From an uncultured Acidimicrobiales bacterium (lineage in GTDB: Bacteria > Actinomycetota > Acidimicrobiia > Acidimicrobiales > SZUA-35): a stretch of 44,300 nt of DNA. How positions within the stretch are numbered: position 1 is the first letter of the stretch; each line of letters begins with the position of its first letter. Shown here in pieces: positions 16,391-34,004 of the stretch. The stretch lies in the NCBI GenBank assembly GCA_938029215.1, contig CALHFG010000124.1, forward strand, positions 1 through 44,300, read 5' to 3'. The notes beneath the pieces are model-generated. The model saw only the letters and a program-made list of their open reading frames with translations, was not told the origin of the DNA and did no database searches. The position numbers and the translations under genes were made by a program.

Positions 16391-16517
16391 ACAACCACCC
16401 AGGCGCATGAACCATGTTGGTTGTCCAAGCTGGTCTACATTAGGTCATAGCTAGGCAACTAGCCTCCTGCAGAAACCTTCTTTGAGGTTTATGCTCATAG
16501 GTCCTTAAGTGGGACCT
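16391..16517. repeat. Cluster of short perfect inverted repeats
   Basis: Four perfect arm pairs follow each other in the AT-rich divergent region: ACAACCA/TGGTTGT (16391-16397, 16418-16424), GCTAG/CTAGC around GCAA (16450-16463), AAACCT/AGGTTT (16473-16490) and AGGTCC/GGACCT (16499-16517). The last one spans the -35 of the sigma28-like promoter. They could be operators for the RHH gene or folds in a transcript from further upstream. Confidence 0.5.
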
Positions 16518-16532
16518 TGTACATGCCGATAG
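16506..16532 (+). promoter_or_regulatory. Sigma28 (FliA/WhiG)-like promoter for RHH gene
   Basis: TAAG (16506-16509), 15 bases, then GCCGATAG (16525-16532), against the consensus TAAA-N15-GCCGATAA. The expected start of transcription is near 16540, giving a leader of about 54 bases before the ATG at 16594. Two further sites with the same spacing occur in this window. Confidence 0.55.
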
Positions 16533-16593
16533 ATTCTGTGCCGTTGCACCGCGACGGATGAAAATGAATCGAATATTTTGATTGGATGCCGCC

Positions 16594-16833
16594 ATGACAA
16601 CAACTACTACCCAGCGCAAGGCCCTGCACGCCTATCTGAGCGACGATGCTCACGAGCAATGGCACACCTTCGCCGCCCAAGAGGGCGTGAGCGTTAGTGC
16701 CGTACTGGAAGCCCTTGCGACCGAGCTTGATTTCTCGAACGACACCTCCGAGGCTCCGATGAAGGATCGCCTCAACGAAGTGGTCGCGATCGCTCGCCGC
16801 ACCGACGCAAGCCGCCGTCGCCGTCGCCGCTGA
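16594..16833 (+). CDS. Small ribbon-helix-helix-like DNA-binding protein
   Basis: 79 residues from ATG; an in-frame TTG at 16582 is less likely. Residues 8-45 (KALHAYLSDDAHEQWHTFAA, then EGVSVSAVLEALATEL) have the strand-helix-helix pattern of Arc/CopG-type regulators, with the GVS(V)SA turn between helices. The C-terminal tail SRRRRRR is strongly basic and could bind nucleic acid. No toxin gene adjoins it, so it is probably a stand-alone regulator or nucleoid-associated protein. It has its own sigma28-like promoter and an excellent terminator. No clear Shine-Dalgarno is visible. Confidence 0.75.
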   Translation: MTTTTTQRKALHAYLSDDAHEQWHTFAAQEGVSVSAVLEALATELDFSNDTSEAPMKDRLNEVVAIARRTDASRRRRRR

Positions 16834-16864
16834 GCCAACGTTCAACCGCACGAGCGGGAACCTC

Positions 16865-16890
16865 AAAAGCTGACCTTCGGGTCGGCTTTT
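16865..16890. terminator. Bidirectional intrinsic terminator
   Basis: AAAAGCTGACC (16865-16875), a TTCG tetraloop, and GGTCGGCTTTT (16880-16890) form an 11-pair stem with one G-U pair and A/U tails on both strands. It lies between the RHH gene (plus) and the hydrolase gene (minus, stop at 16908) and should serve both. Confidence 0.9.
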
Positions 16891-16907
16891 CTGGTTTTGG
16901 GCCCCCG

Positions 16908-17711
16908 CTACCGAATGAGCTGCAGATAGTCCTCGGGCGAATCGAGAATGCCCAGGTGGTACTGACCCTCCAGCATGACCGAGGTCGCATTGTTCAACGC
17001 TCGCGTGAGCTCGTCGACCCCAGCGGCATCGACCTCGCTGTCGTAGGTTCCGGCACAGACCGCAACGGGCACCGAGATCTCTGCTGCCATTTCCTCGATC
17101 GCCGGCTCACTGGTCATCGAAATTCTGAAAACCAGACCGAAGGTGACCGGATCGACAAGAGACAGTTGCTCGTGGGCGAACCTGGCCGCCTCGCTGTCAC
17201 CTTCGGGGCACCAGCGCTTCACCAACTTTGGAACAACATCGGCCACCGGGTCGGAGTCTTCATCGTCTTCATCCCAGGCGGTGGCCTCCATGATGAGATC
17301 GAGCCAATCGTTTCGCTGAGCATCGCTGCGACCGTAGGGAACACCGAGAATGACGGCTCGCTCCACCATGTCGGGATGGGCGCGGGCCAACGCCAGCGCC
17401 ACCAATCCGCCAAGAGAATGGCCAAGCACATGCACCGGGCCGAGATCCTCGCGCAAGATCAGCTTGCGGACCTGACGCACATAATCATCGATGTGCAGTG
17501 GCCGACTTGGACGAGGGGTTTCACCATGCCCCAGAAGGTCCACGGTGTAGATCGACGTCTCGTCCGCTCCATCCTCGACCAGTGCTGCACGGAATCTGTC
17601 CCACATCGCAGATGTGAGGCCGGTGCCGTGCAACAGAACAATCGGGTTCTTGTAGGCACCCATTACGTTCCAGGCTAGCGTCGGTCGGTCCCGTCGCCGC
17701 CGTATCCTCAT
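16908..17711 (-). CDS. Alpha/beta hydrolase
   Basis: About 267 residues from ATG at 17711; ATG at 17663 (MGAYKNPIVLLHG) would remove the first strand, so the longer form is preferred. The fold is shown by IVLLHGTG (oxyanion hole), DLLGHGETPRPSRP, the nucleophile elbow GHSLGG, and a C-terminal GQYHLGILDSPEDYLQLI with the catalytic His. An acidic cap insert (AWDEDDEDSDP) lies in the middle. Substrate unknown. Its start is 7 bases from the divergent cupin gene, and both starts lie in one 13-base palindrome. Confidence 0.85.
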   Translation of the reverse strand: MRIRRRRDRPTLAWNVMGAYKNPIVLLHGTGLTSAMWDRFRAALVEDGADETSIYTVDLLGHGETPRPSRPLHIDDYVRQVRKLILREDLGPVHVLGHSLGGLVALALARAHPDMVERAVILGVPYGRSDAQRNDWLDLIMEATAWDEDDEDSDPVADVVPKLVKRWCPEGDSEAARFAHEQLSLVDPVTFGLVFRISMTSEPAIEEMAAEISVPVAVCAGTYDSEVDAAGVDELTRALNNATSVMLEGQYHLGILDSPEDYLQLIR

Positions 17712-17721
17712 AGGCCCTATG
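17709..17721. promoter_or_regulatory. Palindrome carrying both divergent start codons
   Basis: CATAGGCCCTATG is a perfect 13-base palindrome. Its left end is the complement of the hydrolase ATG and its right end is the ATG of the cupin gene. Each strand reads AGGNCCTATG-like, giving an AGG a few bases before each start. Promoters must therefore lie inside the opposite coding sequence, for example TATCCT at 17703-17708 for the plus strand. Confidence 0.55.
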
Positions 17722-18330
17722 ACCTCTCTTTCCACACTTGTCGAACGGCTTCGCCGGGCCGCCCAGTCGGGCGAGCCCATGCGCGACGTTGCCGTGGTGG
17801 TAAGCGAGTTCGTTGATGACGGGGGCGTTGAACTTGTGGACGACCCCTTCCACCCGGCTCGAAAGGACCGCCAAGAAGGTCTGGTCGCGCCGGTCAGCCT
17901 CACCGAAGACGCTGCCGTCGTTCTCATACGATCTGCAGCTGGCCTGACCCCAGTCCCCCAGCGTCAAAGCTTGCCCGTCGCCATCGGGATTCTGGCCGGC
18001 CAAGTCACCGTCGACGTGTACGCCGAAGATGAGGAGTCGGGTGAGCTACTGAGTGCTGGCGGCATCGATGTGCTCCCAGAAGAGGTATATGTGATCGAAC
18101 CCGATGTTGTCCACAACGTGCGCTTCTCCGGTGAAGAACCAGGGCTTGCGCTCCATGTGGTTGTGGGCGACCTACAGCGGACGGTTCGCACCCGCTGGCT
18201 ACATGGCGAACGACAGGATCTCGCTCCTTCCGACGCGTACCCGCTCACCGCGCTCGCTATGCCATTGGCCGACACATCGGATCCGAACGACGAGATCATC
18301 GACGAAGAACTCCCCACCGACGAGGCCTGA
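17719..18330 (+). CDS. Cupin-like protein (cysteine dioxygenase-type fold suspected)
   Basis: 203 residues. The central part reads as a double-stranded beta-helix: SLPVAIGILAGQVTVDVYAE, LSAGGIDVLPEEVYVIEPDV, then VHNVRFSGEEPGLALHVVVGDL, similar to the HxVxN..EPalSLHvYg strand of cysteine dioxygenase-like cupins. The first metal motif (HxH) is not evident, so catalytic activity is doubtful and it may be a degenerate cupin. The C-terminus is acidic. It starts divergently from the hydrolase and is followed after 10 bases by an MFS gene, probably in one operon. Confidence 0.55.
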   Translation: MTSLSTLVERLRRAAQSGEPMRDVAVVVSEFVDDGGVELVDDPFHPARKDRQEGLVAPVSLTEDAAVVLIRSAAGLTPVPQRQSLPVAIGILAGQVTVDVYAEDEESGELLSAGGIDVLPEEVYVIEPDVVHNVRFSGEEPGLALHVVVGDLQRTVRTRWLHGERQDLAPSDAYPLTALAMPLADTSDPNDEIIDEELPTDEA

Positions 18331-18340
18331 GTGACCCTCG

Positions 18341-19519
18341 ATGCGTAGAAGGGCCGATCGGCCCCAAGAAAAGCTGGTAACGCCTCGCTTTGCAACCATC
18401 TGCGGCGCCGCGCTCAGCTACTTCTTGGCACTAGGGATGCTCGTGCCCACGCTACCGAGATACGTAGAGGGCGACCTCGCGGGATCGAAACTCGAAGTCG
18501 GCCTCGTGGCTGGCGTCTTCGGCGTAGCTGCCGGACTGATTCGACCATGGCTCGGACGGTTGGGAGACCTCTACGGTCGCCGACTGCTCTTGGTGGTCGG
18601 GGCGACCGTCGGGGCCGTCACGATCTTCCTCTACCCCATGTGGGCTTCGATTCCCTTTCTGATCGGACTTCGGATGGTCAGCGGAATCGGCGAAGCGGGC
18701 GTGTTTATCGGCGCCGCAGTTAGCACCCAAGATCTCGCGCCCGACGATCGGCGGGGCGAAGCAACCAGCTACTTCAGCCTCGCCCTCTACTCCGGCCTCG
18801 GCATCGGTCCGGTCTTTGGTGAGTTCATCGACGAACGGTTCGGGTTTTCTACGGTGGCGTCGATCTGCGCTGGACTGTTGTTGGTCAGCGCGATCCTCGG
18901 CTTCGCCATTCCTCGCCACGTCCCGACACCCAGACCAGAACATCGCCGAAAGGGATTCCTTCACCCTGCCGCCGTCATACCCGGCGGTTTACTCCTCTTG
19001 AGCCTCATCGGTTTCGTGGGGTACACGGCCTTCCTTTCGCTGTATCTCGACCGGTTGGCCGGCGGCGAGGGTTTGGGCCGATCAGGGCCAGTTTTTCTGC
19101 TTTACAGCGCAATCGTTGTCGTCTTTCGTCTCACCTTGGCCGACCTCCCCGATCGACTCGGTGGGCGTCGAGCCGGCGCGTTGGCGTTCTTGTTCATCAT
19201 CGCTGGACTGAGCATCGTGTCGCTGTGGGGATCGCTAACCGGCGTCTACGTGGGAACCGCGGTGCTGGCAATCGGCGCGGCATTCAACTACCCGGCGCTC
19301 TTCCTTTTGGTGATGGCCAAAACCGAAGCCAGCGAACGAGCCTTCGCCATCGCGTCGTTTGGGTTCTTCTTTGACTCGGCGAGCGCTCTGGGGCCACCAC
19401 TGTTGGGGGCCGTCATTTCGCTCACCGGGAGCGAGCGACCCGCCTTCGGCCTCGGCGCCGCAGCTGCGACCCTAGGGCTCTATGGACTGCTCCGGGCGAC
19501 GAACCCGGAGCCGGCGTGA
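18341..19519 (+). CDS. MFS transporter
   Basis: 392 residues with about twelve hydrophobic helices. MFS motif A appears as RPWLGRLGDLYGRRLLL in the 2-3 loop, and LADLPDRLGGRRAGALAF in the 8-9 loop is its second copy. The N-terminal RRRADRPQEK is basic and cytoplasmic. RMVSGIGEAGVFIGAA and FSLALYSGLGIGPVFGE place it in the drug/sugar efflux-type group. Substrate unknown. Probably transcribed with the cupin gene 10 bases upstream. Confidence 0.88.
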   Translation: MRRRADRPQEKLVTPRFATICGAALSYFLALGMLVPTLPRYVEGDLAGSKLEVGLVAGVFGVAAGLIRPWLGRLGDLYGRRLLLVVGATVGAVTIFLYPMWASIPFLIGLRMVSGIGEAGVFIGAAVSTQDLAPDDRRGEATSYFSLALYSGLGIGPVFGEFIDERFGFSTVASICAGLLLVSAILGFAIPRHVPTPRPEHRRKGFLHPAAVIPGGLLLLSLIGFVGYTAFLSLYLDRLAGGEGLGRSGPVFLLYSAIVVVFRLTLADLPDRLGGRRAGALAFLFIIAGLSIVSLWGSLTGVYVGTAVLAIGAAFNYPALFLLVMAKTEASERAFAIASFGFFFDSASALGPPLLGAVISLTGSERPAFGLGAAAATLGLYGLLRATNPEPA

Positions 19520-19534
19520 CGCCTAAACAACCTT

Positions 19535-19576
19535 CTTAGAGGGTCGCGCTTAGAGGGTCGCGCTTAGAGGGTCGCG
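19535..19576. repeat. Three tandem copies of a 14-base repeat over a stop codon
   Basis: CTTAGAGGGTCGCG occurs at 19535-19548, 19549-19562 and 19563-19576 without a mismatch. The third copy contains the TAA stop of the minus-strand aldolase gene and its last codons. The others lie just beyond it, so the stop has been copied twice into the 3' flank. Confidence 0.9.
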
Positions 19577-20583
19577 GCCGCCTTGGCAAAGCCATCGATC
19601 GTGGCCGAGATGTCGGAGTCGCTTACATCGAGATGAGTCACCAAGCGATAACTCGGCCCACCCCGGACACCGATTCCCGTGTCGTTCAGAACCGAGTTAA
19701 AACCGTCGATCTGATCTGTGGCCATGTCGACGGTGACGAACACCATGTTGGTTGCCCGTTTGTCGACGGCAATCCGGTCAATCGCCCCAAGTCCAACCTC
19801 GAGATCGGACGCCCGGCGATGGTCTTCGGCCAGTCGATCCACGTTGTTGTCGAGTGCAAAAATCCCCGCGGCTGCCAGAATTCCGGCCTGGCGCATCCCG
19901 CCGCCCACCATCTTGCGCCAGCGTCGTGCTTGCCCAATCAGGTCGGCTGATCCGACCAGCACCGAGCCAACCGGTGCGCCGAGGCCCTTGCTGAGGCAGA
20001 CCGACACCGTGTCAAAGCCCTTCGCAATGTCAGCTGGCGATGTGGCTTGCTCAACGGCGGCGTTAAACAACCTGGCGCCGTCCAAGTGGGTGGACAGCCC
20101 GGCGTCGCGGGCAATCGCTTGGGCGTCCGCCACATACTTTGGTGGAAGTGGTTGTCCGTCGTGGGTGTTCTCGAGCGCCAGCATCTTGGTATGAGCGAAG
20201 TGGTTGAGGCTCGGCTGGGGCTTGATGTAGGACCGAATCCGATCAAGATCCATCGTGCCGTCGGCATTCATCTCGATGGGCTGTGGCTGAATGCTGCCCA
20301 GAACCGCAGCTCCACCCGCCTCCCATTTATAGGCATGGGCCAACTGGCCCACCAGGTACTCATCACCGCGCTGGCAATGGGCCAGGATGCCGATGAGGTT
20401 CGACTGTGTTCCCGACGGAACAAACACACCGGCTTCTTTCCCCAAAACCCTTGCAGCCTGGGCTTCTAGACGGTTGACGGTGGGGTCCTCGCCGAAAACG
20501 TCGTCGCCGACTTCGGCGTGAGCCATCACCTTGCGCATCTCCGGCGAAGGCTTGGTGAACGTGTCGGACCGCAGATCGATCAT
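19564..20583 (-). CDS. ltaE: Low-specificity L-threonine aldolase (beta-eliminating lyase family)
   Basis: 339 residues, the normal length. The N-terminus MIDLRSDTFTKPSPEMR is diagnostic of threonine aldolases. FVPSGTQSN forms the PLP phosphate site, THLDGARLFNA carries the PLP Asp, and Lys199 in VCLSKGLGAPVGS is the Schiff-base lysine. It cleaves threonine or allo-threonine to glycine and acetaldehyde. The C-terminal codons are part of a tandem repeat that also duplicated the stop. Divergent from the AAA ATPase gene with about 50 bases between starts. Confidence 0.93.
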   Translation of the reverse strand: MIDLRSDTFTKPSPEMRKVMAHAEVGDDVFGEDPTVNRLEAQAARVLGKEAGVFVPSGTQSNLIGILAHCQRGDEYLVGQLAHAYKWEAGGAAVLGSIQPQPIEMNADGTMDLDRIRSYIKPQPSLNHFAHTKMLALENTHDGQPLPPKYVADAQAIARDAGLSTHLDGARLFNAAVEQATSPADIAKGFDTVSVCLSKGLGAPVGSVLVGSADLIGQARRWRKMVGGGMRQAGILAAAGIFALDNNVDRLAEDHRRASDLEVGLGAIDRIAVDKRATNMVFVTVDMATDQIDGFNSVLNDTGIGVRGGPSYRLVTHLDVSDSDISATIDGFAKAAATL

Positions 20584-20632
20584 GGCCTGAGAGTATCTAC
20601 AGCAGGGCCTCTTTCGTGCCGTTATCTCTTCG

Positions 20633-22063
20633 GTGAGTGATGATTCAGCACCCGTAGAAAGCCCGTCCGCCCCTCGCCCCGCAGTTGCGGGACCTACAAT
20701 CGGCGCCGCCTATCGCATGCCGACCCGCGTGGAAGAGTTGGGTATCCCGCTGAACATGGTCGAAGATCTCTTCTGCCGCCGGGTGCTCAACGCCCGGCGG
20801 ACGACCATTCGGGCCGCGGCCGCCGAGATCGGCATCAGCCTGAACGTCGCTACCGGAGTCGCCGAGGACCTACGCGGGCGAAACCTAATGGAGTTCCACG
20901 GACTCGATGGCCGTGACTACATCATTGGTCTGACCGAGCAAGGACGTTCGATCACCTTTGATGGAATGCGCGAGTCGAGCTATGCCGAAATCATGCCGGT
21001 GCCGCTGGCGCTGTACGTGCAGACGGTGCATTCCCAGAAGGCCAAACTCAAGATCAACCGCGACAGCATCAAGGAAGCGTTCAACGATCTCGTCGTGAGC
21101 GACAAGCTGCTCGACCAACTAGGTCCAGCGTTCCTGAACGACGGCGCAATCTTCATGTACGGGCCCCCAGGAACTGGCAAGACCAGCCTGGCCGAGCGAA
21201 TGATCCGGATCCACAAAGACGCGATCTTGATCCCTCACTCGGTCGAGATGGATGGCCAAGTCATCACCGTTTTCGACCCTGCGGTCCATACCCCCGTTGC
21301 CCAGCAGCCGCCGGGCCTCGACCCTCGCTGGATTCTGTGTGCGCGGCCAATTGTGATCGTTGGCGGCGAGCTAACCCTGGACATGGTCGACCTCGAGCTC
21401 GACGAGAAGTCCGGCACATACAAGGCTCCGATTCAGATGCAGGCCAACAACGGCATCCTGGTGGTCGATGACTTTGGTCGTCAGACCATCCGCCCTTCGG
21501 ATCTGCTCAATCGCTGGATCATCCCGCTCAGCCGCGGTATCGACTTCCTGAAGCTCGCCAACGGAACCAAGTTCACCGTTCCCTTCGAGATCAAGCTGGT
21601 GGCTTCAACCAACCTCAATCCCAACTCTCTCGGCGACGACGCGTTTCTTCGGCGCCTTCGCAACAAGGTGTATGTCGGCGCAGTAGAGGAAGAGGCATTC
21701 AACTGGATCCTCGCTCGCGTGTCTCAAGCCAAGGGGCTGCAGGTGACCGCCGAAGGTGCGGAACGATTGCGTCAGCAAGCCGAGAAACACCTCGGTGAAC
21801 TGCGACCCTATCTCGCCATCGACTTCTGCGAACTCGCGCTCGGCATCTGCGAGTACGAAGGCATGGCGCGCACGCTCGACACCCGCATGATCGACCGCGT
21901 GGCCTCGGTCTACTTCGTGAATGAGGAAGTGGCGGAGGAGCCCAAGACCTCAGCGCAGCGAGCCGCGGAACTGGCCCAAAAGGCTGCCGAGTTGGCCGCC
22001 AGCAGTTCCAATGCCAACCCGCTCGGCTTCGATCCCTTCAGCCTCACACTCCACCAGGGGTAA
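20633..22063 (+). CDS. Orphan AAA ATPase with N-terminal winged helix
   Basis: 476 residues, GTG start. Residues 1-30 are Ala/Pro-rich and flexible. Residues ~32-110 look like a winged helix-turn-helix (TTIRAAAAEIGISLNVATGV, then DYIIGLTEQG). The AAA core has Walker A GPPGTGKT (177-184), Walker B NGILVVDDFG (about 273-282), sensor 1 LVASTNLNP and an Arg pair DAFLRRLRNKV as the likely finger. The last ~25 residues are Ala-rich. Similar ATPases are scattered in several phyla without an agreed function. No partner (VWA, pilus or secretion genes) lies next to it, and its operon appears monocistronic. Confidence 0.75.
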   Translation: MSDDSAPVESPSAPRPAVAGPTIGAAYRMPTRVEELGIPLNMVEDLFCRRVLNARRTTIRAAAAEIGISLNVATGVAEDLRGRNLMEFHGLDGRDYIIGLTEQGRSITFDGMRESSYAEIMPVPLALYVQTVHSQKAKLKINRDSIKEAFNDLVVSDKLLDQLGPAFLNDGAIFMYGPPGTGKTSLAERMIRIHKDAILIPHSVEMDGQVITVFDPAVHTPVAQQPPGLDPRWILCARPIVIVGGELTLDMVDLELDEKSGTYKAPIQMQANNGILVVDDFGRQTIRPSDLLNRWIIPLSRGIDFLKLANGTKFTVPFEIKLVASTNLNPNSLGDDAFLRRLRNKVYVGAVEEEAFNWILARVSQAKGLQVTAEGAERLRQQAEKHLGELRPYLAIDFCELALGICEYEGMARTLDTRMIDRVASVYFVNEEVAEEPKTSAQRAAELAQKAAELAASSSNANPLGFDPFSLTLHQG

Positions 22064-22071
22064 CCGGGAAG

Positions 22072-23763
22072 CTACTTCTTCTTTCGCTTCTGCAAATTGG
22101 CCCACTCGTCTCGCAGGCCAACGGTGCGGTGGAAAACCGAAGGATCATCTAGGTCGGCGGCGAAATAGCCGAGTCGTTCAAACTGAATGACCTCGCCAAC
22201 TCCGATGTCGGCCAATACGGGTTCGACCTTGGCGTGACAGATCTCTTTCGCACGCGGGTTGAGCGACTCTAAGGGGTCGGTTCCTTCGGACCCAGGGTGA
22301 GAATCGGTGAACAACCGGTCGTAGAGGTTCACGGTGGCATCGACTGCATGTTCGGCCGAAACCCAGTGCATCGTGCTCTTCACCTTGCGGCCATCGGGGG
22401 CGTTCCCACCTCTGGTGTCGGGGTCGTAAGTGCAATTCACTTGCACGATGGCGCCGTCCCCATCGACCTCGGCGTCGACCGCAGTGATCAAGTACGCGTT
22501 GCGTAACCGCACCTCGCGGCCGGGCGTGAGCCGAAAGTACTTCGGTGGAGGGTCTAGCTTAAAGTCGTCGTCTTCGATCCACAGTTCACCGCTGAACGGA
22601 ACACTGCGGGTGCCCAAATCAGGATTGTTGGGGTGGTTGGCCACATCGAACCATTCGATCTGACCCTCCGGCCAATTGGTGATGACTACCTTGACCGGCT
22701 TGGTGACCGCCATGCGTCTCGGGGCAATCTCGTTGAGCTCGGTTCGCACGAACGACTCGAGCAGCTCGACCTCGACGGTGCTGTTGGTCTTGGCAACGCC
22801 AACTCGATCGACAAAGTCACGCAACGCCGATGCGGGGTAGCCCCGTCGGCGGAGTCCCCTGACCGTCGGCATTTGGGCGTCGTCCCAACCGTCCACATGA
22901 CCCTCTTCGACAAGCGTCCGGAGAACCCGCTTGGACAGAACTGTGTGGGTGATGTTGAGCCGAGCAAACTCGGTCTGCTCTGGGGTATCACCAGGAAGGT
23001 CGAGATGACTCAAACACCACTCATACAGCGGCCGATGATCCGCGAACTCCAGTGTGCATATCGAATGCGTGACGCCTTCGATGGCATCGCTCTGGCCGTG
23101 GGCCCAGTCGTAGGTGGGGTAGATGATCCAGCGATCTTCGGTGCGATGGTGAGGGATCCTTCGGATGCGATAGAGCACCGGATCGCGAAGCCACATATTG
23201 TCCGCCTGCATGTCGATCTTGGCTCGCAGGACCTTCTCACCGTCGGCGAACTGGCCGTCGCGCATCCCGCGAAACAGCGCAAGGTTCTCTTGAACGGAAC
23301 GATCTCGGAACGGGCTTTCGATTCCTGGCTGACCGAACCCGCCTCTTTGTTCTGAAATCGTCTCGGCGCTCTGATCATCGACGAACGCCAGGCCCTTGTT
23401 GATGAGGTCCTCGGCCCAGTCGTAGATCTGCTCGAAGTAGTCCGACGCGTAGCGAGCTTCGCCCGCCGGGGTCACTCCGAGCCACTCGAGGTCCTCCTGG
23501 ATCGCCCGAACATAGGACGTGTCTTCGGTCTCGGGGTTGGTGTCGTCAAATCGCAGAAGGCAGGTGCCGCCAAACTCCTCGGCGATTCCAAAGTTCAGGT
23601 AGATCGATTTTGCGTGCCCGATATGCAAAAAGCCATTGGGTTCAGGCGGGAACCGAGTCTGCACTCGGCCGTGAAACCGATCGGCGGCGATGTCGCTCTT
23701 CACCTTCTCGCGCACGAAGTCAACCGACTCGAACTCGTTGTCCGCCGAACGACCTTCTTCCAT
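22072..23763 (-). CDS. glnS: Glutaminyl-tRNA synthetase
   Basis: 563 residues from ATG at 23763; the reading frame continues upstream but the extension has no family character. HIGH-type motif PPEPNGFLHIGHAKS (about 39-53), LLRFDDTNPETED, TYDWAHGQSDAIEGVTHS, and the KMSKS-type VLSKR. The C-terminal half has the anticodon-binding beta-barrels (RLTPGREVRLRNAYLI). DGWDDAQMPTVRGLRRRGY is characteristic of GlnRS rather than GluRS. Most actinobacteria make Gln-tRNA with GatCAB, so a GlnRS here points to lateral acquisition somewhere in the lineage. A -10-like TACGGT lies 7 bases before the start. Confidence 0.95.
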   Translation of the reverse strand: MEEGRSADNEFESVDFVREKVKSDIAADRFHGRVQTRFPPEPNGFLHIGHAKSIYLNFGIAEEFGGTCLLRFDDTNPETEDTSYVRAIQEDLEWLGVTPAGEARYASDYFEQIYDWAEDLINKGLAFVDDQSAETISEQRGGFGQPGIESPFRDRSVQENLALFRGMRDGQFADGEKVLRAKIDMQADNMWLRDPVLYRIRRIPHHRTEDRWIIYPTYDWAHGQSDAIEGVTHSICTLEFADHRPLYEWCLSHLDLPGDTPEQTEFARLNITHTVLSKRVLRTLVEEGHVDGWDDAQMPTVRGLRRRGYPASALRDFVDRVGVAKTNSTVEVELLESFVRTELNEIAPRRMAVTKPVKVVITNWPEGQIEWFDVANHPNNPDLGTRSVPFSGELWIEDDDFKLDPPPKYFRLTPGREVRLRNAYLITAVDAEVDGDGAIVQVNCTYDPDTRGGNAPDGRKVKSTMHWVSAEHAVDATVNLYDRLFTDSHPGSEGTDPLESLNPRAKEICHAKVEPVLADIGVGEVIQFERLGYFAADLDDPSVFHRTVGLRDEWANLQKRKKK

Positions 23764-23813
23764 GGGCCAAACCGTAGCGCCCTCTGGGTAGTGGTTGGAC
23801 CGGATTCGTCTAG

Positions 23814-24428: not shown

Positions 24429-24454
24429 GGTAATACGACGAAAAGCACGTGACC

Positions 24455-26463: not shown

Positions 26464-26492
26464 TTTTCAGTTTCCAACCATCGACCTATAGT
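26464..26492 (+). promoter_or_regulatory. Sigma70-type promoter with AGTTGAG repeats
   Basis: TTTTCA (26464-26469), 17 bases, then TATAGT (26487-26492). ATG at 26504 follows after 11 bases, so the transcript would have almost no leader. AGTTGAG at 26490-26496 overlaps the -10 and recurs at 26523-26529, with an inverted copy (CTCAACT) at 26539-26545. These may be operator half-sites. Confidence 0.5.
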
Positions 26493-26503
26493 TGAGACTC
26501 GCT

Positions 26504-26638: not shown

Positions 26639-26952
26639 GTGGGGCGCCACGCTGGGAGCCGATCGCCCGCCTCGCGATCAGACTTAACCGCATCGAACCC
26701 GAGGTGGCTGATCGTCAAACGGCGATCGATACCGCAGCCGTTCAGCTGTGCGAAGCATGCGATTACAACGATGTCCTGTTGCGCGAAGCGCTCGCGGTGT
26801 TTGTGGCCGGCGCCGATCGCGGCCGGATTGGGGCTCGAGCGGCCGACAGTCTGCGCCTGGCGATCAGGAAGAGCGACGGGGCCAAGAAGCCGTTCCGTGG
26901 CGTTCGACTTCGTGGCCGACGTCGCCCGGTTGCCCGCCAGCCCCAGCGTTAG
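26635..26952 (+). CDS. Small basic helical protein of unknown function
   Basis: 105 residues. Residues ~5-85 are predicted helical (EPIARLAIRLNRIEPEVADR, then QTAIDTAAVQLCEACDYNDV and LLREALAVFVAG), and the C-terminus is strongly basic (RGVRLRGRRRPVARQPQR). An in-frame stop at 26623 fixes the start close to 26635. Codon third positions are GC-rich, as expected for a real gene here. It is probably the second gene of a small unit with its own promoter and 3' hairpin. The basic tail suggests nucleic-acid or membrane contact; no family recognised. Confidence 0.6.
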   Translation: MSGAPRWEPIARLAIRLNRIEPEVADRQTAIDTAAVQLCEACDYNDVLLREALAVFVAGADRGRIGARAADSLRLAIRKSDGAKKPFRGVRLRGRRRPVARQPQR

Positions 26953-26973
26953 ACGACCGACTGGAACGGTCGT
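26953..26973 (+). terminator. Hairpin after small gene
   Basis: ACGACCG (26953-26959) and CGGTCGT (26967-26973) form a perfect 7-pair stem starting one base after the stop codon. Only a short T run follows, so it may be a weak terminator or an mRNA-stabilising 3' end. Confidence 0.45.
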
Positions 26974-27225
26974 TCCAACGCCCGAGATCCTCACAGGCGG
27001 TGCAGTGCGTTCGCTCTCGATGAGCATGCCGACGGCTCTAGTCGGACCGCTTCGAATCGACATGTGACGACACGCAGTGCTTCTACCTGCGACTGCTGGT
27101 CCCAATGGCCCTCTTGCAGGGAAAATCCTCCCTGGTGCACTAGGCAAGCATCACAAAAGGGTCTACCGTCCTGTCCGTGGGGTGGAGCTTACCTAGGGCG
27201 TTGTAAAGCCAACCAAGGAGCATCC

Positions 27226-29181
27226 ATGAAAAGCAGATCATTGAAGGCCGCTTTGGCCTTCCTCACCGCTGCGAGTGCGGTCGTCGGTTTCGCCGGCGCG
27301 TCCTCAGCTGCAAACGTGGAGGGGCAGACCTACAGTTTCCCCCTTCAGGCCAAGAGCGACGCCGACATTACCGGCAACGCCTCGGCCACCGTTAACGGCG
27401 CCAACGTCGACTACACCATCTTCGCCGACAACGTCGACGTCGATGCGGTTGTGATGCATTGGCACGCCGGAGACAACTGCGATGCAGCCGGCGGCGTCGA
27501 GATCGGCATTCCCGGCGAGACCACCGTGGTCCGCAACCCGGCTGAGACGGTGAAGAACGGTTTCGTTATCACCGGTAGCGCACCCCTCGGCACAGCCGAC
27601 ATGGAGAACGTCTACTTCAACGTGCACGAAGCAGGCAACCTGGCCAACGTGATCGCCTGTGGCGAGCTCGATGCGTCTGATTCACCCTTGCTCATAGACG
27701 GGAGCGGCAACAACCGCTCGACAGCGTTCTCTGCCACGAACGCCAACACGCTCAACGGCACCGACGTAGTCCTCACCGGTGGCGTGACCTTGGAAGGCAA
27801 CAAGCTGGCCGTCAACCTGCAACTGACCGGCGACGATCTCCTCGATGGAAACAACCGAGTAGTGACCCTGCGAAACAACAGCAGCTGCGACGCATCCACC
27901 GACACGTATCTGACGAGCGACATCATTCGAAGCCTCACAGGCCAGGGAACTACCGCACCTCCCTCCGCTTCCAACGACCTGCTGACTGTGTTCAACAACA
28001 GTGCGTGGTCCAAGACAATCGGAGCCCCACCAGCGCCATCAACGGCACAGGTCAACACCACCATCATCCTCACCCCAGAAGAGGTTGATGCCTATGGCGA
28101 CATGACCATCGTTGTCCACGGCAACGAGAGCAACTCCGATATGACCGTTCTGCCAGCACCGCTCAACCTCATGGTTCGACAGGCCCAGCCTGTGGCATGT
28201 GGCCAGCTCGGCGTTGGGGATGCAACCGCACCCATCAACGGCAACTACTACGCCCTCGAGTTTGAAGAGGTCGGTAGCTCGGGCTACTCCGGTACGGGAA
28301 CGCTCAAGAACACCACCGCTTCCGACGCCGGCTCGGTTGAAGCCCACGTGCTTATCAACGCCCCCGCCGCCGCTGCTGGTGTACACAAGGTAGTTCTCGA
28401 CAACGACACCTCCTGCGACGCACTAACCGCCCCAATCGGATGGGCCTCCATTGCTCCCGATCTCCTGGCCAACGGGACCGATCAGATCGACATCAACACC
28501 GGTGTCCTCCGTTCGATCTTTGGCCCGCTCGAGAACACCGGGGCGTTCAGCGGCGCAGATGCCACCACTGTCAACGACGGACAGTTCACGGTGCTCATCG
28601 CGAATGAGTCCAAAGACACCGTTCTGGCCTGTGCTCAGCTCAGCCGTACCTTCGGTGAAGCTCCAGAGGCTCCGCCGGCTCCCAGCGATGTACCTCCCTT
28701 CGACGGCACCGTCGCTGAGGCGACCACCCTGGAAGAGATCCTGATGGCCTCGGACTACCGAGCCAACGCGACCAACACCGGCACCGATCAAGAGATCATG
28801 CGTCTCTATCAGGCCTTCTTTGGCCGTGACCCCGATGTCGCAGGTGTCCAGTACTGGATCAGCGTCAGCAAGGGCGAGGTCAATGGCACGGTGTACAGCA
28901 CGCTGGAACTGGCCGGGTTCTTCCCAGGCGCTTCCGACGAGTTCGCCAACCAGTTCGAAGGTATCTCCAACCAGGCATTCGTCGATGCGGTCTACCAGAA
29001 CGTTCTCGGACGTGAAGGTGAAGCCGCCGGCGTCGCATACTGGAATGACATCCTTGACGGCACCAACAACAGCGGCAACAACCCGGCGCTCTCACAGGGC
29101 ACCCGAGCCGACGTTGTGTACTACGTCGCCATCAACCAAGAGTTCATCAATCGTGAGCCCTACGCGGTTCCCGCTGGTTAA
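27226..29181 (+). CDS. Secreted three-repeat protein with C-terminal DUF4214 domain
   Basis: 651 residues from ATG at 27226, preceded by AAGGAG. A Sec signal (about 1-28, ending SSAA) is followed by three similar beta-rich repeats, about 34-150, 165-330 and 340-480. Each has a CDA motif and ends in a strand with ACGEL, ACGQL or ACAQL. The mature protein has exactly six cysteines, one pair per repeat (85/145, 221/325, 397/469), suggesting one disulfide each. The first repeat has MHWHAGDNCDA, resembling CHRD-type domains. After a Pro-rich linker comes DUF4214 (about 513-650; MRLYQAFFGRDPDVAGVQYW). Probably a cell-surface protein. A strong terminator follows. Confidence 0.82.
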   Translation: MKSRSLKAALAFLTAASAVVGFAGASSAANVEGQTYSFPLQAKSDADITGNASATVNGANVDYTIFADNVDVDAVVMHWHAGDNCDAAGGVEIGIPGETTVVRNPAETVKNGFVITGSAPLGTADMENVYFNVHEAGNLANVIACGELDASDSPLLIDGSGNNRSTAFSATNANTLNGTDVVLTGGVTLEGNKLAVNLQLTGDDLLDGNNRVVTLRNNSSCDASTDTYLTSDIIRSLTGQGTTAPPSASNDLLTVFNNSAWSKTIGAPPAPSTAQVNTTIILTPEEVDAYGDMTIVVHGNESNSDMTVLPAPLNLMVRQAQPVACGQLGVGDATAPINGNYYALEFEEVGSSGYSGTGTLKNTTASDAGSVEAHVLINAPAAAAGVHKVVLDNDTSCDALTAPIGWASIAPDLLANGTDQIDINTGVLRSIFGPLENTGAFSGADATTVNDGQFTVLIANESKDTVLACAQLSRTFGEAPEAPPAPSDVPPFDGTVAEATTLEEILMASDYRANATNTGTDQEIMRLYQAFFGRDPDVAGVQYWISVSKGEVNGTVYSTLELAGFFPGASDEFANQFEGISNQAFVDAVYQNVLGREGEAAGVAYWNDILDGTNNSGNNPALSQGTRADVVYYVAINQEFINREPYAVPAG

Positions 29182-29215
29182 CCCTCAACCTCTCCCCTAG
29201 GGAGTCAAAACTGAG

Positions 29216-29243
29216 AGAAGCGCCGGGTTTGCCCGGCGCTTCT
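29216..29243 (+). terminator. Strong intrinsic terminator after DUF4214 gene
   Basis: AGAAGCGCCGGG (29216-29227), loop TTTG, CCCGGCGCTTCT (29232-29243), then TTCGTTTTT. A 12-pair stem with a U-rich tail, 34 bases after the stop. Confidence 0.93.
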
Positions 29244-29311
29244 TTCGTTTTTCCTTTGAGTTGTAGTCGAGGCTTTGCGCAACCCGTTGGGATTGCCCGT
29301 CGCTCGGTCGG

Positions 29312-29485
29312 TTAGACCGAGGCCTCGAGTTCGTTGAGACGAATGATCTCGCCGCAGTTGCGGCACTCTCGAGTGTCTGCGTCGTTGTCATGAAGGACCG
29401 CAATTGGGCGCAGATGTCGAAAGTCGCTGCTCCGCGCGGTCATGCAGCACGTAGGGCACTGCACATTTGTTGTTGATATTTCCAC
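29312..29485 (-). CDS. 57-residue zinc-ribbon protein
   Basis: GTG start at 29485 opens 57 codons ending in TAA. The protein has CPTCC near residue 10 and CRNCG near residue 41, spaced like a small treble-clef or zinc-ribbon. In between is a basic stretch (TARSSDFRHLRP), and the C-terminus is acidic (IIRLNELEASV). Such proteins often act as small regulators or RNA/protein adaptors; I do not recognise a named family. A sigma28-like promoter ends 6 bases before the GTG, so the mRNA would be leaderless, consistent with the lack of a Shine-Dalgarno. Confidence 0.72.
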   Translation of the reverse strand: MEISTTNVQCPTCCMTARSSDFRHLRPIAVLHDNDADTRECRNCGEIIRLNELEASV

Positions 29486-29491
29486 TTGTAC

Positions 29492-29518
29492 CTATCGGCG
29501 CTATGCGCCTGCTTTTTA
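29492..29518 (-). promoter_or_regulatory. Sigma28 (FliA/WhiG)-like promoter for zinc-ribbon gene
   Basis: On the minus strand TAAA (29515-29518), 15 bases, then GCCGATAG (29492-29499). This is the best match in the window to TAAA-N15-GCCGATAA, differing only in the last base. The -10 ends 6 bases before the GTG start at 29485. Confidence 0.65.
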
Positions 29519-29524
29519 CTATCC

Positions 29525-29785
29525 ATGCCAAATCTGGCATCGCCACCACGTTGGCAGCATTTCGTTGGTTCTCCCATTGAGATCAATGGGCTGAGGACCG
29601 AAGCGATTCGTCGCACCACACTGATGCGGCTCGCTCCAACTAGATCATACCACATCGAGCGCGGCCAGTGATTTCGGGGGCGTTGGGTCCATCGGCGGAC
29701 AAGGGGCATGAGCAACCTCATAGAGAACAGATGAACATCCGCTGAGCAGGACGGCGATAGGCCAAAGGGCCGATAGCCTTTGGCC
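29525..29785. repeat. Palindrome-rich 304-base intergenic region
   Basis: Between 29486 and 29789 I see no supported gene. It holds three clean palindromes: ATGCCA/TGGCAT around AATC (29525-29540), CCCATTGA/TCAATGGG around GA (29573-29590, operator-like) and GGCCAAAGG/CCTTTGGCC (29760-29785). The last encloses exactly GCCGATAG and ends 4 bases before the ATG at 29790, where it may block or regulate initiation. A long minus-strand frame through the region has no protein-like character. Confidence 0.6.
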
Positions 29786-29789
29786 CTCT

Positions 29790-31307
29790 ATGGCCCGCCG
29801 TATTGAGGTAGAACTCACCAGCACAAAAGACGCAGACACATGGACCTGGAGGGCAGCTGGCGCAAAGCAGCCCAAAGGTGAAGTTGCGGCGTCCCTTCTC
29901 TATGCCGACGCAAAGGTTGGTGACATCTGCCGAGTAGAGGCAGAATTCCACCTCGACGGCATCGAAGTCCTTGAGGTCTTTGCACCCAAGGCCAAAAAGG
30001 AACGCGACAACCTGCTCGAGCTCATCTCCCGCCCGATTCCTGATAGCGAGCTAGTCACTGAGGTAAAGGCACCGAAGGGCCGTGGACGGGGTCGAGACGG
30101 CGACCGGCCTCGCCGCGATCGTGGTCCGCGCAAAGAAGGCTCCAGCGACCGTGGTTCGCGGCCACCTCGGGACCGTAAACCAGCTACTCCGGCCAAACCA
30201 CGCCCCACCCGTTTGAAGCCTCGCCGGGTCCATCGTGATGCCGTGGTGGCATCCGTGCCAGAAGAGCACAAGCCCATCGCCGACCAGCTGCTCAAGGGTG
30301 GTCTTCCCGCAGTCCGAACCGCCGCAAAGGACGACCCGAACGCGAAGGCGATTATCGCCATCGCCGAAGGCCTCCAACCTAAGCTCGCTACGGCCGAGTG
30401 GCGTGACCGAGCCGAGGCCGCCATGGGCGACATCGAACAGCTGGATCTCCGTGACCTTCGTCAGGTTGTCGTTGCCGCCGACAAGGGTGCCCGCGACGAA
30501 GAAACGCGAGCGATGGCAGCCGAGCTTCGGGAGGCGCTGAGTCGTCGAATTGAGGCCGACCACACCGAATGGCTCTCCGATCTCGAAACCGCCGTGAAGG
30601 AAGAGCGCACTATCCGTGCGCTGCGTCTGACGTCGCGCCCGGTGAAGGCCGGATCGCCGATTCCCGTCGAGATCGCCGAACCGCTCGCGGCCCAGACCGC
30701 AGCAGCGCTTGGCCCTGAGACCTTTCCTGATCGTTGGGCGTCGGTAGTTGATGCTCTGGCGTTCTCCCCCATCCGTAATGCCGTGACGCCGGAGCACTAT
30801 CCAGACAATCTCGACGAGATGTCGCTCGACATCATCCGGTCCGTGGCTGATCGTGTCCCGGCGATCGCCGCCCACTACGGAATCAAGCCAGCCGAATCCA
30901 AGGCTGCTGCCAAGCGCGTTCGGGCTGCACGTAAGGCTGCTGGCCCCCGTGGCCGAGGCGGTCGACCCGGAGGCAGCGACCGTCCCCGGGGCCCTCGCAA
31001 GGAAGGTGCTGGAGCGGCAGGTGAACGGGGCGAGCGCAAGCCTCGTGAGAAGCGTGAGAAACGAGATCGTGATTCCGGACCCAAGGTCCACAAGGGTCAT
31101 GCTGACCTCCTCCGAACGCCTTCACGGCCGCGCCCGGGCACGATTGTCCCCGAGCCAGAACCCGAACCTGAGGTAGTAGAAGAGGTTGCGGCAGACGCCG
31201 AGGCGCCTGCCGAGGCCGTGGAAGCCACTGAAGAAGCAGCTGCTGCTCCGGAAGCCGAAGCGCCTGCAGCTGACTCACCGGAGGAAGAGACTCCCCCGGC
31301 CGAGTAG
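29790..31307 (+). CDS. Charged low-complexity protein, possible RNA binder
   Basis: 505 residues. Residues 1-65 look like a small beta domain (ASLLYADAKVGDICRVEAEF, then HLDGIEVLEV), perhaps OB-like. Residues ~95-150 and ~370-430 are Arg/Gly/Lys-rich (for example GRGRGRDGDRPRRDRGPRK). The middle (~150-365) is helical with many EADHTEWLSDLETAVKEERT-type heptads. The last 65 residues are Glu/Ala/Pro-rich and acidic. The layout of folded helices between basic tails resembles RNA-associated scaffold proteins, but I know no named family. It lacks a Shine-Dalgarno and starts just after a hairpin. A good terminator follows. Confidence 0.75.
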   Translation: MARRIEVELTSTKDADTWTWRAAGAKQPKGEVAASLLYADAKVGDICRVEAEFHLDGIEVLEVFAPKAKKERDNLLELISRPIPDSELVTEVKAPKGRGRGRDGDRPRRDRGPRKEGSSDRGSRPPRDRKPATPAKPRPTRLKPRRVHRDAVVASVPEEHKPIADQLLKGGLPAVRTAAKDDPNAKAIIAIAEGLQPKLATAEWRDRAEAAMGDIEQLDLRDLRQVVVAADKGARDEETRAMAAELREALSRRIEADHTEWLSDLETAVKEERTIRALRLTSRPVKAGSPIPVEIAEPLAAQTAAALGPETFPDRWASVVDALAFSPIRNAVTPEHYPDNLDEMSLDIIRSVADRVPAIAAHYGIKPAESKAAAKRVRAARKAAGPRGRGGRPGGSDRPRGPRKEGAGAAGERGERKPREKREKRDRDSGPKVHKGHADLLRTPSRPRPGTIVPEPEPEPEVVEEVAADAEAPAEAVEATEEAAAAPEAEAPAADSPEEETPPAE

Positions 31308-31321
31308 TCATCACGTATTCC

Positions 31322-31354
31322 GAGCCCGGTTCAGAGTTCGCTCTAACCGGGCTC
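31322..31354 (+). terminator. Intrinsic terminator
   Basis: GAGCCCGGTT (31322-31331) pairs with AACCGGGCTC (31345-31354) around an inner AGAG-TTCG-CTCT hairpin, followed by TTTGTGTTTTGG. It ends the charged low-complexity gene. Confidence 0.88.
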
Positions 31355-31408
31355 TTTGTGTTTTGGTTCACCCAACGTCTCGTTAACAGGTAACGGTACG
31401 GGCGGACC

Positions 31409-31873
31409 TCAGAACGCTCGATGGGCGGTAAGTAGACGAGCCTTGAGCCCGAAGGTCTCAAAGAAGTTCTTCGTCGCTCGATCTCCCGGCAGCGCCCACG
31501 CATCGACCCCTACACATCCTCGTGAAATGAGGTCGGCGACGACGAGATCCATCATCGCTTCCCCGATTCCGACTCCCTGTGCGTCCGGATAGACCGCGAA
31601 GTCAAAGAGGCGACCCAGTTTTTCGCCGGTGTCGCGAAGCTCCACGGTGAAGATGGCATACCCGAAGACGATCCCGTCGAACTCCCCCACGACGCAACGT
31701 TGGTCGGGGATGGCGGCCGACGCTCGGTCGGCGGGGCTTTGGAAGCCAATCTCAAAGGAGGAGAATACGGGGCCACCGCGAGCCTCTGGCATCGGAGCGA
31801 GCGCGGCATCACCGATCCACTCGATGTCGTTCAGGTCGTCTGGGGTTGCGAGCCGAGCGGACTCGAAGGCCAT
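31409..31873 (-). CDS. GNAT-family N-acetyltransferase
   Basis: 154 residues, standard size. Motif A appears as FDFAVYPDAQGVGIGEAMMD (the pyrophosphate-binding QGVGIG loop after the V-strand), followed by a helix, WALPGDRATKNFFETFGLKA as motif B, and a C-terminal LLTAHRAF strand. It would acetylate an amine from acetyl-CoA; the acceptor is unknown. Its ATG is directly adjacent (no gap) to the stop of the upstream gene, so the two are an operon. Confidence 0.88.
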   Translation of the reverse strand: MAFESARLATPDDLNDIEWIGDAALAPMPEARGGPVFSSFEIGFQSPADRASAAIPDQRCVVGEFDGIVFGYAIFTVELRDTGEKLGRLFDFAVYPDAQGVGIGEAMMDLVVADLISRGCVGVDAWALPGDRATKNFFETFGLKARLLTAHRAF

Positions 31874-32464
31874 CTAGGATTCCAGACGATCGAGCTTTGC
31901 CAGAATCGTCTTGCGGTTCCGGTTGGCCTCTTCGTGCTTACGAACCCGAGTCCGTTGGGCGGCGGTGAGATCACCGACGAGCGCGACCACTTCTCGAGCC
32001 GTCAAATCGTCGTATCCGGCGATGGGGAGGCGTGGGCCCTTGCTCGCTGCCGACGCCTTTGTGGGAGCGCCCTTCTTGGCCGGCTTCTTTGGCGCGCTCT
32101 TGGCCGAATCACCCTTGGGCGTGGTGGCCTTGGGGGCGGGAGGCGGAGGTGCAATCTCCGATGTCACCTCGGCTGGTGGCGCCTCGTCTTCAGGCGGGGC
32201 TAACCCGACCGCTTGTCCGAATTCGGTAATTCCCCGCGCTGCGATCGTGGCCATTGTGGTGAGGGCATCGGCGGCGGCACGTTCGGCGCCGGCGCTTCCC
32301 TTTGACGCCGCCATTCGACCGATGAACATGCCGAGCTGCATCTGGGAGCGGCCCTTCTTCACCAGCTGCGGCATGACCTTGCGATACTCGTAGAGAAACC
32401 CTACGGGGGCGTACAACATGACATCGAGAAGGTCGAGATCTTCGTCTTTTTCCTTGGATGCCAT
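31874..32464 (-). CDS. Low-complexity protein with actinobacterial C-terminal helical domain
   Basis: 196 residues. The N-terminus (LDLLDVMLYAPVGFLYEYRK, then MPQLVKKGRSQMQLG) is amphipathic, followed by an Ala/Lys/Pro-rich linker (about 98-142, with SAPKKPAKKGAPTK). The end, GYDDLTAREVVALVGDLTAA followed by QRTRVRKHEEANRNRKTILA, is a small helical domain common to several actinobacterial proteins annotated as lipid-droplet or membrane-associated. Lies between the acidic gene and the GNAT gene in one run. Function not established. Confidence 0.7.
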   Translation of the reverse strand: MASKEKDEDLDLLDVMLYAPVGFLYEYRKVMPQLVKKGRSQMQLGMFIGRMAASKGSAGAERAAADALTTMATIAARGITEFGQAVGLAPPEDEAPPAEVTSEIAPPPPAPKATTPKGDSAKSAPKKPAKKGAPTKASAASKGPRLPIAGYDDLTAREVVALVGDLTAAQRTRVRKHEEANRNRKTILAKLDRLES

Positions 32465-32481
32465 AGTTGTTTGTTACTCCC

Positions 32482-32958
32482 TTAGGAGAAGATTTGAGAA
32501 ATCGAGGGACAATCGGGGTCGCCGACAGGGCAGCGAGGGCTCTTGGCTGAGCCAAATTGGCTGCGGTTCACCATGAGGAAGCAACTATTGCAGACGAACT
32601 CACGATCGCGTTGGGCCGACACCTTGGGGGCGTCATCGTCCTCTTCATCTTCGTCGTCATCGTCGGTTGCCATGCGGTCCTGAAGGATGTCGCTGAGATC
32701 GGCCTCGATGTCATCGGGATCGAGCTCATCGTCGTCATCTTCATCGTCGGTGTTTACCTTGCGGGCGCGAGGTGCGGGCGCCTCATCTTCTGCTTCTTCC
32801 TCATCTTCGACGTCGGCAGCTTCAAAGTCGTCTTCGCCGATATCGGCTTCGAGATCATCATCGAGATCGTCTTCTAGATCATCGACAAGATCGACATCAT
32901 CGGGGTCACCGACGGCCTCCTCGTCTTCAACTACTTCGTCTTCGAAATCTTCAGCCAT
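32482..32958 (-). CDS. Very acidic protein with DUF4193-like C-terminal Cys motif
   Basis: 158 residues. The first ~110 residues are dominated by Asp and Glu (many DDDDE blocks). The C-terminus FVCNSCFLMVNRSQFGSAKS with a later CPVGDPDC matches the shape of actinobacterial DUF4193 (CSSCFLVxHRSQL...C..C), which likely binds one metal. The gene has an AAAGG ahead of its ATG. The acidic N-terminal extension is longer than in most DUF4193 proteins. First gene of a run of three towards the GNAT gene. Confidence 0.72.
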   Translation of the reverse strand: MAEDFEDEVVEDEEAVGDPDDVDLVDDLEDDLDDDLEADIGEDDFEAADVEDEEEAEDEAPAPRARKVNTDDEDDDDELDPDDIEADLSDILQDRMATDDDDEDEEDDDAPKVSAQRDREFVCNSCFLMVNRSQFGSAKSPRCPVGDPDCPSISQIFS

Positions 32959-33059
32959 GAAACACCTTTATTGAACGCGACCGCTGGATGCGGCGGACTC
33001 TACAGAATCCTTCGGCAACTCCCACCGTCGCGACTGTCTCATTCGACACACCGGCCAAA

Positions 33060-33971
33060 TTACTTGGAGACAAACATTGCTCGGTGGCTGGTCACGTTGG
33101 CCACATACGAGTGTGTGCTGGTGTACCAGCCGTTAGCCCGAACAGCTCCCTGGCCCTGATAGTAGGCGGCGATTGCGTCGTTTTCGTTGTCCATTTCGAC
33201 GAGCAGCCAGCCCAGGTAGGCGGCGCTCATCCTTATGTTGTCCTCAGGCTCGGTACGGTCCAGCGACGGGTCACCAATAATGCTGTTGGCGATCCATTCG
33301 CCAGTGGCCGGCATGATCTGACCGATCCCGAACGCACCGGCGCTGGAGATTTGATCGTTTCGCCAGCCCGACTCTTGCCATGCGACGGCCATGAGAAGAT
33401 CGGTCGGAACGCCATAGTGGACGCTCCACTTCTCAAGGCTCGGCAGAATTGCCAGCCGGACGGGATCGTTCACGATCCGAGGATGCAGGTTCGGGTAGTT
33501 AGCAGCCGAGCCAGGCACCTGAAGTTTCTGGCCCACTCGTATGCGGTACGGACTGCTGATGTTGTTTTGCTTGGCGATCTCGCGCCAGCTCACGCCAAGC
33601 TTCGATCCGATTCGGCTGAGCGAATCGCCTGACACGACCGTATAGCTTCCGGTACCTCCGGAGAAGTTGGCCGGGTTGACCGCCTTCGGCTTGTCGGTTG
33701 ACGCCGCCGCAGCCGGCTGGGCCGGTGTGGAGGACTGTCCGCTGTGGGGAATGCTCAGAACTTGCCCAACACGAATGCGGTTTGGGTTCGAAATGTCATT
33801 CTCTTTCGCGATCGCCGAAACGGATACGTCGTACTTTCGTGCGATGTGGCCCAGGGTCTCGCCTGACTTCACGGTGTGGGAGCCATGCGCAGACGCAGGT
33901 GCCACCGAGAAAAGCATGGCAGCACCGGCAAGCGCGGGAACGGCAACGGTTTTAAGGATCTTCGAGTGCAT
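33060..33971 (-). CDS. LysM-LysM lytic transglycosylase (SLT domain), secreted
   Basis: 303 residues. Signal peptide about 1-28 (ending PASA). Two LysM domains at about 31-75 and 108-153 (HTVKSGETLGHIARKYDVSV and YTVVSGDSLSRIGSKLGVSW) bind peptidoglycan. A transglycosylase domain follows (~180-285), with catalytic Glu200 in AVAWQESGW, then SSAGAFGIGQIMPAT and AAYYQGQGAVR. It would cleave glycan strands outside the membrane. A sigma28-like promoter ends exactly 6 bases before its ATG, so transcription is probably leaderless and tied to that sigma factor. Confidence 0.9.
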   Translation of the reverse strand: MHSKILKTVAVPALAGAAMLFSVAPASAHGSHTVKSGETLGHIARKYDVSVSAIAKENDISNPNRIRVGQVLSIPHSGQSSTPAQPAAAASTDKPKAVNPANFSGGTGSYTVVSGDSLSRIGSKLGVSWREIAKQNNISSPYRIRVGQKLQVPGSAANYPNLHPRIVNDPVRLAILPSLEKWSVHYGVPTDLLMAVAWQESGWRNDQISSAGAFGIGQIMPATGEWIANSIIGDPSLDRTEPEDNIRMSAAYLGWLLVEMDNENDAIAAYYQGQGAVRANGWYTSTHSYVANVTSHRAMFVSK

Positions 33972-33977
33972 GTAGGC

Positions 33978-34004
33978 CTATCGGCCCATACCCCACTGCC
34001 ATTA
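33978..34004 (-). promoter_or_regulatory. Sigma28 (FliA/WhiG)-like promoter for LysM transglycosylase
   Basis: On the minus strand TAAT (34001-34004), 15 bases, GCCGATAG (33978-33985). The -10 is 6 bases from the ATG at 33971, the same spacing as at the zinc-ribbon gene. Confidence 0.6.

Follow-up and report, generated by a model that had tools for sequence, protein, structure and literature searches.

Sigma-28-type promoters of a conserved gene set, predicted to be partly leaderless, in an uncultured Acidimicrobiales bacterium and their likely reading by a second FliA/WhiG-type sigma factor

The window analysed here, one whole contig of 44,300 bases (CALHFG010000124.1) from the 3.94-Mb draft genome (94.6% complete) of an uncultured Acidimicrobiales bacterium, carries three sequence matches to promoters of the sigma-28 (FliA/WhiG) type. 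Site 1 (TAAG-N15-GCCGATAG) lies at 16506-16532 on the + strand, site 2 (TAAA-N15-GCCGATAG) at 29492-29518 on the - strand, and site 3 (TAAT-N15-GCCGATAG) at 33978-34004, also on the - strand. The shared -10 element, GCCGATAG, has 7 of the 8 bases of the sigma-28 -10 element GCCGATAA, and the -35 elements TAAG, TAAA and TAAT each stand exactly 15 bp from it. All three sites are outside called genes and each is oriented toward the next gene. A preliminary description of this DNA had placed them at these positions and strands with exact N15 spacing, had called them intergenic and had judged them above chance; all of this is confirmed, by comparison with the called genes and by 100 dinucleotide shuffles of the window, in which TAAN-N15-GCCGATAG has a mean of 0.01 matches and no shuffle reaches the 3 observed. 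The heptamer GCCGATA occurs 12 times in the window against 3.55 expected from the shuffles, and T-N-A-N is correctly spaced in three of these copies, sites 1-3 only. By the -35 test the remaining nine are not promoters. An inverted repeat, CCAAAGG-GCCGATAG-CCTTTGG, lies at 29754-29790 (+) with no -35 element, directly before a gene at 29790. Scanning the window for Rfam families and tRNAs gave no matches.

Behind site 1, which is kept in the relative G002 as TAAG-N15-GCCGATAG, lies a gene for a 79-amino-acid protein (16594-16833, +), a member of a small conserved family with 70 homologs, none of which has a listed Pfam domain; the protein itself has no Pfam match. It had been called RHH-like, a label that neither Pfam nor a fold search bears out, as its middling all-helical model (pLDDT 75.4) has no fold match at E <= 0.001. 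The target of site 2 (29312-29485, -) is a 57-amino-acid protein, by eye zinc-ribbon-like and carrying two CxxC pairs; its most likely start is the GTG at 29485, 6 nt past the -10 element. It has no Pfam match above cut-off and three homologs, one of which its source names "transcription elongation factor Elf1". The ortholog in G002 retains GCCGATAG-N6-GTG with the -35 element shifted or lost, and the partial neighbourhoods retrieved for G001 and G003 show no ortholog. Site 3 precedes a LysM2-SLT lytic transglycosylase of 303 amino acids (33060-33971, -), which matches Pfam LysM (115.9 bits) and SLT (80.6 bits) above cut-off and has an N-terminus that is signal-peptide-like by eye. Its orthologs in G001-G004 are 72-79% identical, and the site is kept as GCCGATAGGCC-N3-ATG ahead of this gene in all five genomes of the genus.

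The distance from the -10 element to the gene differs among the sites. At sites 2 and 3 the layout is GCCGATAG-N6-RTG, which leaves no room for a leader, and transcription is predicted to start on or beside the GTG at 29485 and the ATG at 33971, respectively, giving leaderless messages. Site 1 lacks this layout; its predicted start is at about 16538-16540, which would give a leader of ~55 nt. At N6 spacing, GATAG always places a TAG stop codon in frame just upstream of the start codon. The genome has two genes for DUF4214 proteins: the one in the window (27226-29181, +), convergent to the zinc-ribbon gene, has no such site, and the other, on contig C111 (L179:1-1449, -), has GCCGATAG-N6-GTG at its start.

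The genome scan for TAAN-N15-GCCGATA that the preliminary description had proposed finds 9 exact matches against 3 in a reversed control. Three are those of the window, four (C84, C101, C105, C122) are upstream of called genes, one (C22) is inside a called coding open reading frame (ORF) and one (C92) is coding-looking by eye; because of these last two, the strict motif is, taken by itself, a weak marker across the genome. A start codon stands exactly 6 nt past GCCGATAG in four of the nine (window sites 2 and 3, C101 and C122), and in C122 this spacing implies a start 26 codons further upstream than the ORF caller chose, in the same frame. The strict motif has 21 matches against 6 in the genus and 107 against 105 control matches in the family, so it is rejected as a regulon marker beyond the genus; TAAN is too narrow a description of the -35 element, as its second base varies (T-N-A).

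In the five genomes of the genus, a search for GCCGATAG-N6-RTG, which places no condition on the -35 region, gives 72 sites against 8 in the reversed control. A looser search of the genome itself, GCCGATA-N1..13-RTG, gave 214 matches against 109; among the first 100 matches listed, N6 is the commonest spacing after GCCGATAG (7/39), which is suggestive only. Seventy of the 72 sites were tabulated by gene start, leaving out one contig-end duplicate and one LysM gene of G001 that was read separately: 42 are intergenic and precede a coding ORF that they open, 11 also open one but themselves lie inside another called ORF, and 17 open none by the criteria used. T-N-A at -19, exactly 15 bp upstream of the -10 element, is present in 29 of the 42 intergenic gene-start sites and in 2 of the 28 others (Fisher 1.5e-7), and at any other offset it is found in at most 4 of the 42. 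Counting a single site for each ortholog family places it at -19 in 11 of 22, compared with 3 at the next most frequent offset (p 0.0009). An identical GCCGATAG-N6-GTG before a GlgX-like gene is found at the ends of two contigs of the genome G000 (C48:63-79, +, and C101:63-79, -), which suggests an assembly overlap or repeat.

When the 53 gene-start sites (42 intergenic and 11 overlapping) are grouped by homology of their targets, 12 groups carry the site in at least two genomes of the genus, and these recurring groups support the earlier idea of a regulon that mixes wall remodelling with regulators. Three groups have the site in all five genomes: the LysM-SLT transglycosylase, with T-N-A at -19 in three genomes and one base closer in two; a VanY-like peptidase, with a Pfam match for the one member scanned (30.4 bits, cut-off 25); and a redoxin-NHL protein, with one site inside another called ORF and T-N-A at -19 in two of the other four. 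A protein of ~550 amino acids with no assigned family carries it in four genomes and a PleD-like REC protein in three. Two genomes each have it before an SLT_2 protein (25.6 bits, cut-off 24.3), an SGNH-like protein (Pfam under cut-off), a TPR protein, the zinc ribbon, an uncharacterised protein of 260 amino acids, and GlgX-like and GH65-like proteins (labels by eye). The last two are set aside as targets: their sites lack T-N-A at -19, and those of the GH65-like genes overlap the preceding ORF. Single site-bearing targets are a Tad protein in G001 and a TadE protein in G002, both above the Pfam cut-off; a target in G054 has a Tad match under cut-off and one in G041 is Flp-pilin-like by eye with no Pfam match. 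The REC protein, of 644 amino acids, has 13 homologs, nine with Pfam REC, and a middling model (pLDDT 71.7, pTM 0.44). In a fold search the ten best hits of this model are all to PleD, a diguanylate cyclase of REC-REC-GGDEF architecture, at low whole-chain TM-scores (0.2-0.3); GGDEF domains alone match the model at up to 0.73 of the target. Catalysis as a diguanylate cyclase is unlikely, because the family consensus has RRDxRS in place of the expected GGDEF.

A FliA/WhiG sigma gene had been anticipated in this genome, and two proteins score above the FliA/WhiG cut-off (TIGR02479), so that the single label has to be split into a WhiG ortholog and a second sigma factor, here Sig2. The first passes the WhiG equivalog cut-off of 343 (348.9-349.3 bits) and lies in a dprA-whiG-M23-rpsB-like gene order, with labels mostly by eye. 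Sig2 (C33:9700-10575, beside gyrA, gyrB and recF by eye) scores 191.4 bits in the WhiG equivalog model, below that cut-off, and is 36% identical to the WhiG of its own genome. In two single-contig genomes (G040, G125) its orthologs lie ~12 kb from base 1. Its 12 close named relatives comprise nine from Acidimicrobiales or Acidimicrobiaceae metagenome-assembled genomes and three labelled only actinobacteria or Actinomycetes; the steadiest neighbour, in 10 of these 12 loci, is a gene for an NAD-binding protein, and no anti-sigma gene was recognised at the positions neighbouring Sig2. FlhA (PF00771) has no match in the 94.6% complete genome, other flagellar genes being outside the search, and the motility role that had been considered for the regulon is set aside on this result.

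The idea that Sig2 is autoregulated through its own class of promoter was considered and rejected, since the conserved site upstream of Sig2 differs in -35 element and spacing. Comparison of the upstream loci (G000 contig C33, L235, L236, L237, L244 and L245) finds CTCAAG[GT]T-N14-GCCGATAA in four of the five genomes of the genus (at L048:9630-9658 in this one), the fifth having no Sig2 match, and extra copies of CTCAAGTT-N13-GCCGAT in G003, G005 and G020. A WhiG-class promoter may perhaps feed Sig2 in a sigma cascade.

The distribution of sigma factors and promoter patterns was compared in 148 genomes, 39 of the family and 109 outside it, with sigma presence assigned by score cut-offs and WhiG taken as present for four fragments or weak matches. 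Sig2 orthologs are scored in 38 of the 39 family genomes and in 21 of the 109 others. The relaxed leaderless pattern T-N-A-N16-GCCGATA-N7-RTG has 112 matches against 6 control matches in the family, where 31 of 39 genomes have a match, and 46 against 8 outside it, where 29 of 109 do. Outside the family it tracks Sig2, with 1.05 matches per genome where Sig2 is present and 0.27 where it is absent (p 0.001), and it does not track WhiG (0.45 and 0.38, p 0.41). The seven genomes outside the family with Sig2 and no WhiG hold 7 matches, in three genomes, against 0 in the control. Sites in Sig2 genomes also open genes more often: an ORF of at least 90 amino acids with no long in-frame extension is opened by 13 of 16 sampled sites (22 exist) in genomes outside the family with Sig2 and by 4 of 17 (24 exist) in those lacking it. 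One further Sig2-negative site, in G041, which has a Sig2-like match under cut-off, was set aside and would not open a qualifying ORF.

A different pattern, CTCAAG-N14..17-GCCGAT, is likely a second sigma-28 promoter class in Acidimicrobiales. It has 297 matches against 122 in 53 genomes with WhiG and no Sig2, 119 against 104 in 35 genomes with neither, and 69 against 79 in the 28 of those 35 that also lack any other FliA-like match. The excess of this pattern follows the presence of WhiG (p 0.0009) but not that of Sig2 (p 0.16). Among the 148 genomes it exceeds its control wherever WhiG is scored present.

These results make it likely that the three sites of the window are sigma-28-type promoters of a wider conserved set read by Sig2, with two of the three predicted to be leaderless. 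At the level of sequence, the -35/-10 pattern, its fixed distance to gene starts, conservation in orthologs, the two sigma genes and the lack of an FlhA match all stand, and the comparative evidence favours Sig2 over WhiG as the reader. Several observations weigh on the other side. T-N-A at -19 is absent from 13 of the 42 gene-start sites, and across the family strict TAAN is not in excess over its control. Neither phylogeny nor base composition is taken into account in the association tests, which rely on score cut-offs, and a single genome, G113, supplies 6 of the 16 sampled Sig2-positive sites. In family f3, Sig2 occurs with hardly any sites (none in G040 and G098, one in G137). The leaderless pattern alone has a chance background, because genomes with neither Sig2 nor WhiG also yield matches: 7 of these 35 hold 9, against 3 in the control.

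The most substantial competing explanation, that WhiG reads the three promoters, draws on a further adverse case, the same-genus draft G001 (88% complete), which has 6 pattern matches and WhiG with no Sig2 match. WhiG is also the protein that passes the equivalog cut-off and has the whiG-like neighbourhood, the strict TAAN-N15-GCCGATA agrees with the published WhiG/flagellar consensus (PMC8325347), and RsiG is present in three of the four Acidimicrobiales species covered there. However, the leaderless pattern follows Sig2 rather than WhiG outside the family and persists in genomes that lack WhiG, and WhiG follows the CTCAAG class instead. WhiG as the sole reader is thus lowered to an unlikely reading. 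It is quite improbable that the sites are common to both sigma factors, which belong to one promoter-specificity family, or are read by a further sigma factor of this sigma-rich genome, which has 67 sigma region-4 matches; only two proteins pass the FliA/WhiG cut-off, and GCCGATA is the -10 element of that family (PMC8325347). That sites 1-3 are chance matches or a non-promoter element is very improbable: the GCCGATA-rich window and the modest or absent excess of strict TAAN in genome and family would fit it, but not the independent -35 element at one exact offset, the site kept across orthologs and the 72-to-8 enrichment.

If Sig2 is the reader, RNA polymerase with Sig2 would bind the T-N-A-N15-GCCGATAG sites, melt GCCGATAG and start on or beside the R of RTG, giving leaderless mRNAs. 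Wall enzymes (LysM-SLT, VanY-like, SLT_2), surface proteins, small proteins and the PleD-like protein with the degenerate GGDEF would then be switched on jointly. The trigger might be a growth-phase or surface transition, a guess made because the targets resemble the pilus and cyclic di-GMP (c-di-GMP) genes of the Rubrobacter WhiG regulon.

That regulon is the nearest described case. According to PMC8325347, WhiG of Rubrobacter, a non-sporulating actinobacterium, drives type IV pilus and diguanylate cyclase/phosphodiesterase genes under RsiG and c-di-GMP, and 12 flagellar-type promoters are confirmed by start-site mapping. Flagellar-type promoters (TAAA, GCCGATAA) and non-motility targets are shared with the present set. 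Unlike in that regulon, the -35 element here is T-N-A, a G follows GCCGATA in the searched set, start codons stand 6 nt past the -10 element, wall enzymes are found repeatedly among the targets, and the better candidate reader is a second sigma factor. The likeness to the Streptomyces sporulation sigma factor lies in the WhiG ortholog encoded here; of its known targets, whiH and whiI (PMC4255298), neither was identified among the target groups, no search being aimed at either. The FliA/sigma-28 flagellar regulon has the same promoter type and sigma family, with FlhA unmatched here. Leaderless genes are estimated at more than 20% of actinobacterial genes and have a TA-like signal ~10 bp before the start codon (PMC3160421); the present sites share a -10-like signal at that distance, here of the sigma-28 type and with its own -35 element. 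The set is of a known kind, sigma-28-type promoters with non-flagellar targets, in a variant with a predicted leaderless layout and probably a second sigma factor. No regulon of this description was found in the literature searched on WhiG- or FliA-type sigma factors in Acidimicrobiia and on leaderless transcription in Actinobacteria, subscription journals being mostly outside the search.

A broader proposal, held tentatively and at somewhat less than even chances, is that Acidimicrobiales have two sigma-28 grammars: WhiG would act on CTCAAG-N14..17-GCCGAT, and Sig2, a new subfamily whose gene lies near gyrA, on T-N-A-N15-GCCGATAG with starts at the start codon, as a dedicated switch for a leaderless regulon of envelope, pilus and c-di-GMP-type genes without flagella. 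The analysis yields a list of targets that can be tested for a flagellar-type sigma factor in a large, mostly uncultured actinobacterial order, from a genome in which flhA was not found, and it sets two sigma-28 paralogs apart by promoter pattern and genome distribution. If true, promoters that double as translation starts would offer a clean setting in which to study why an alternative sigma factor pairs with leaderless mRNAs.

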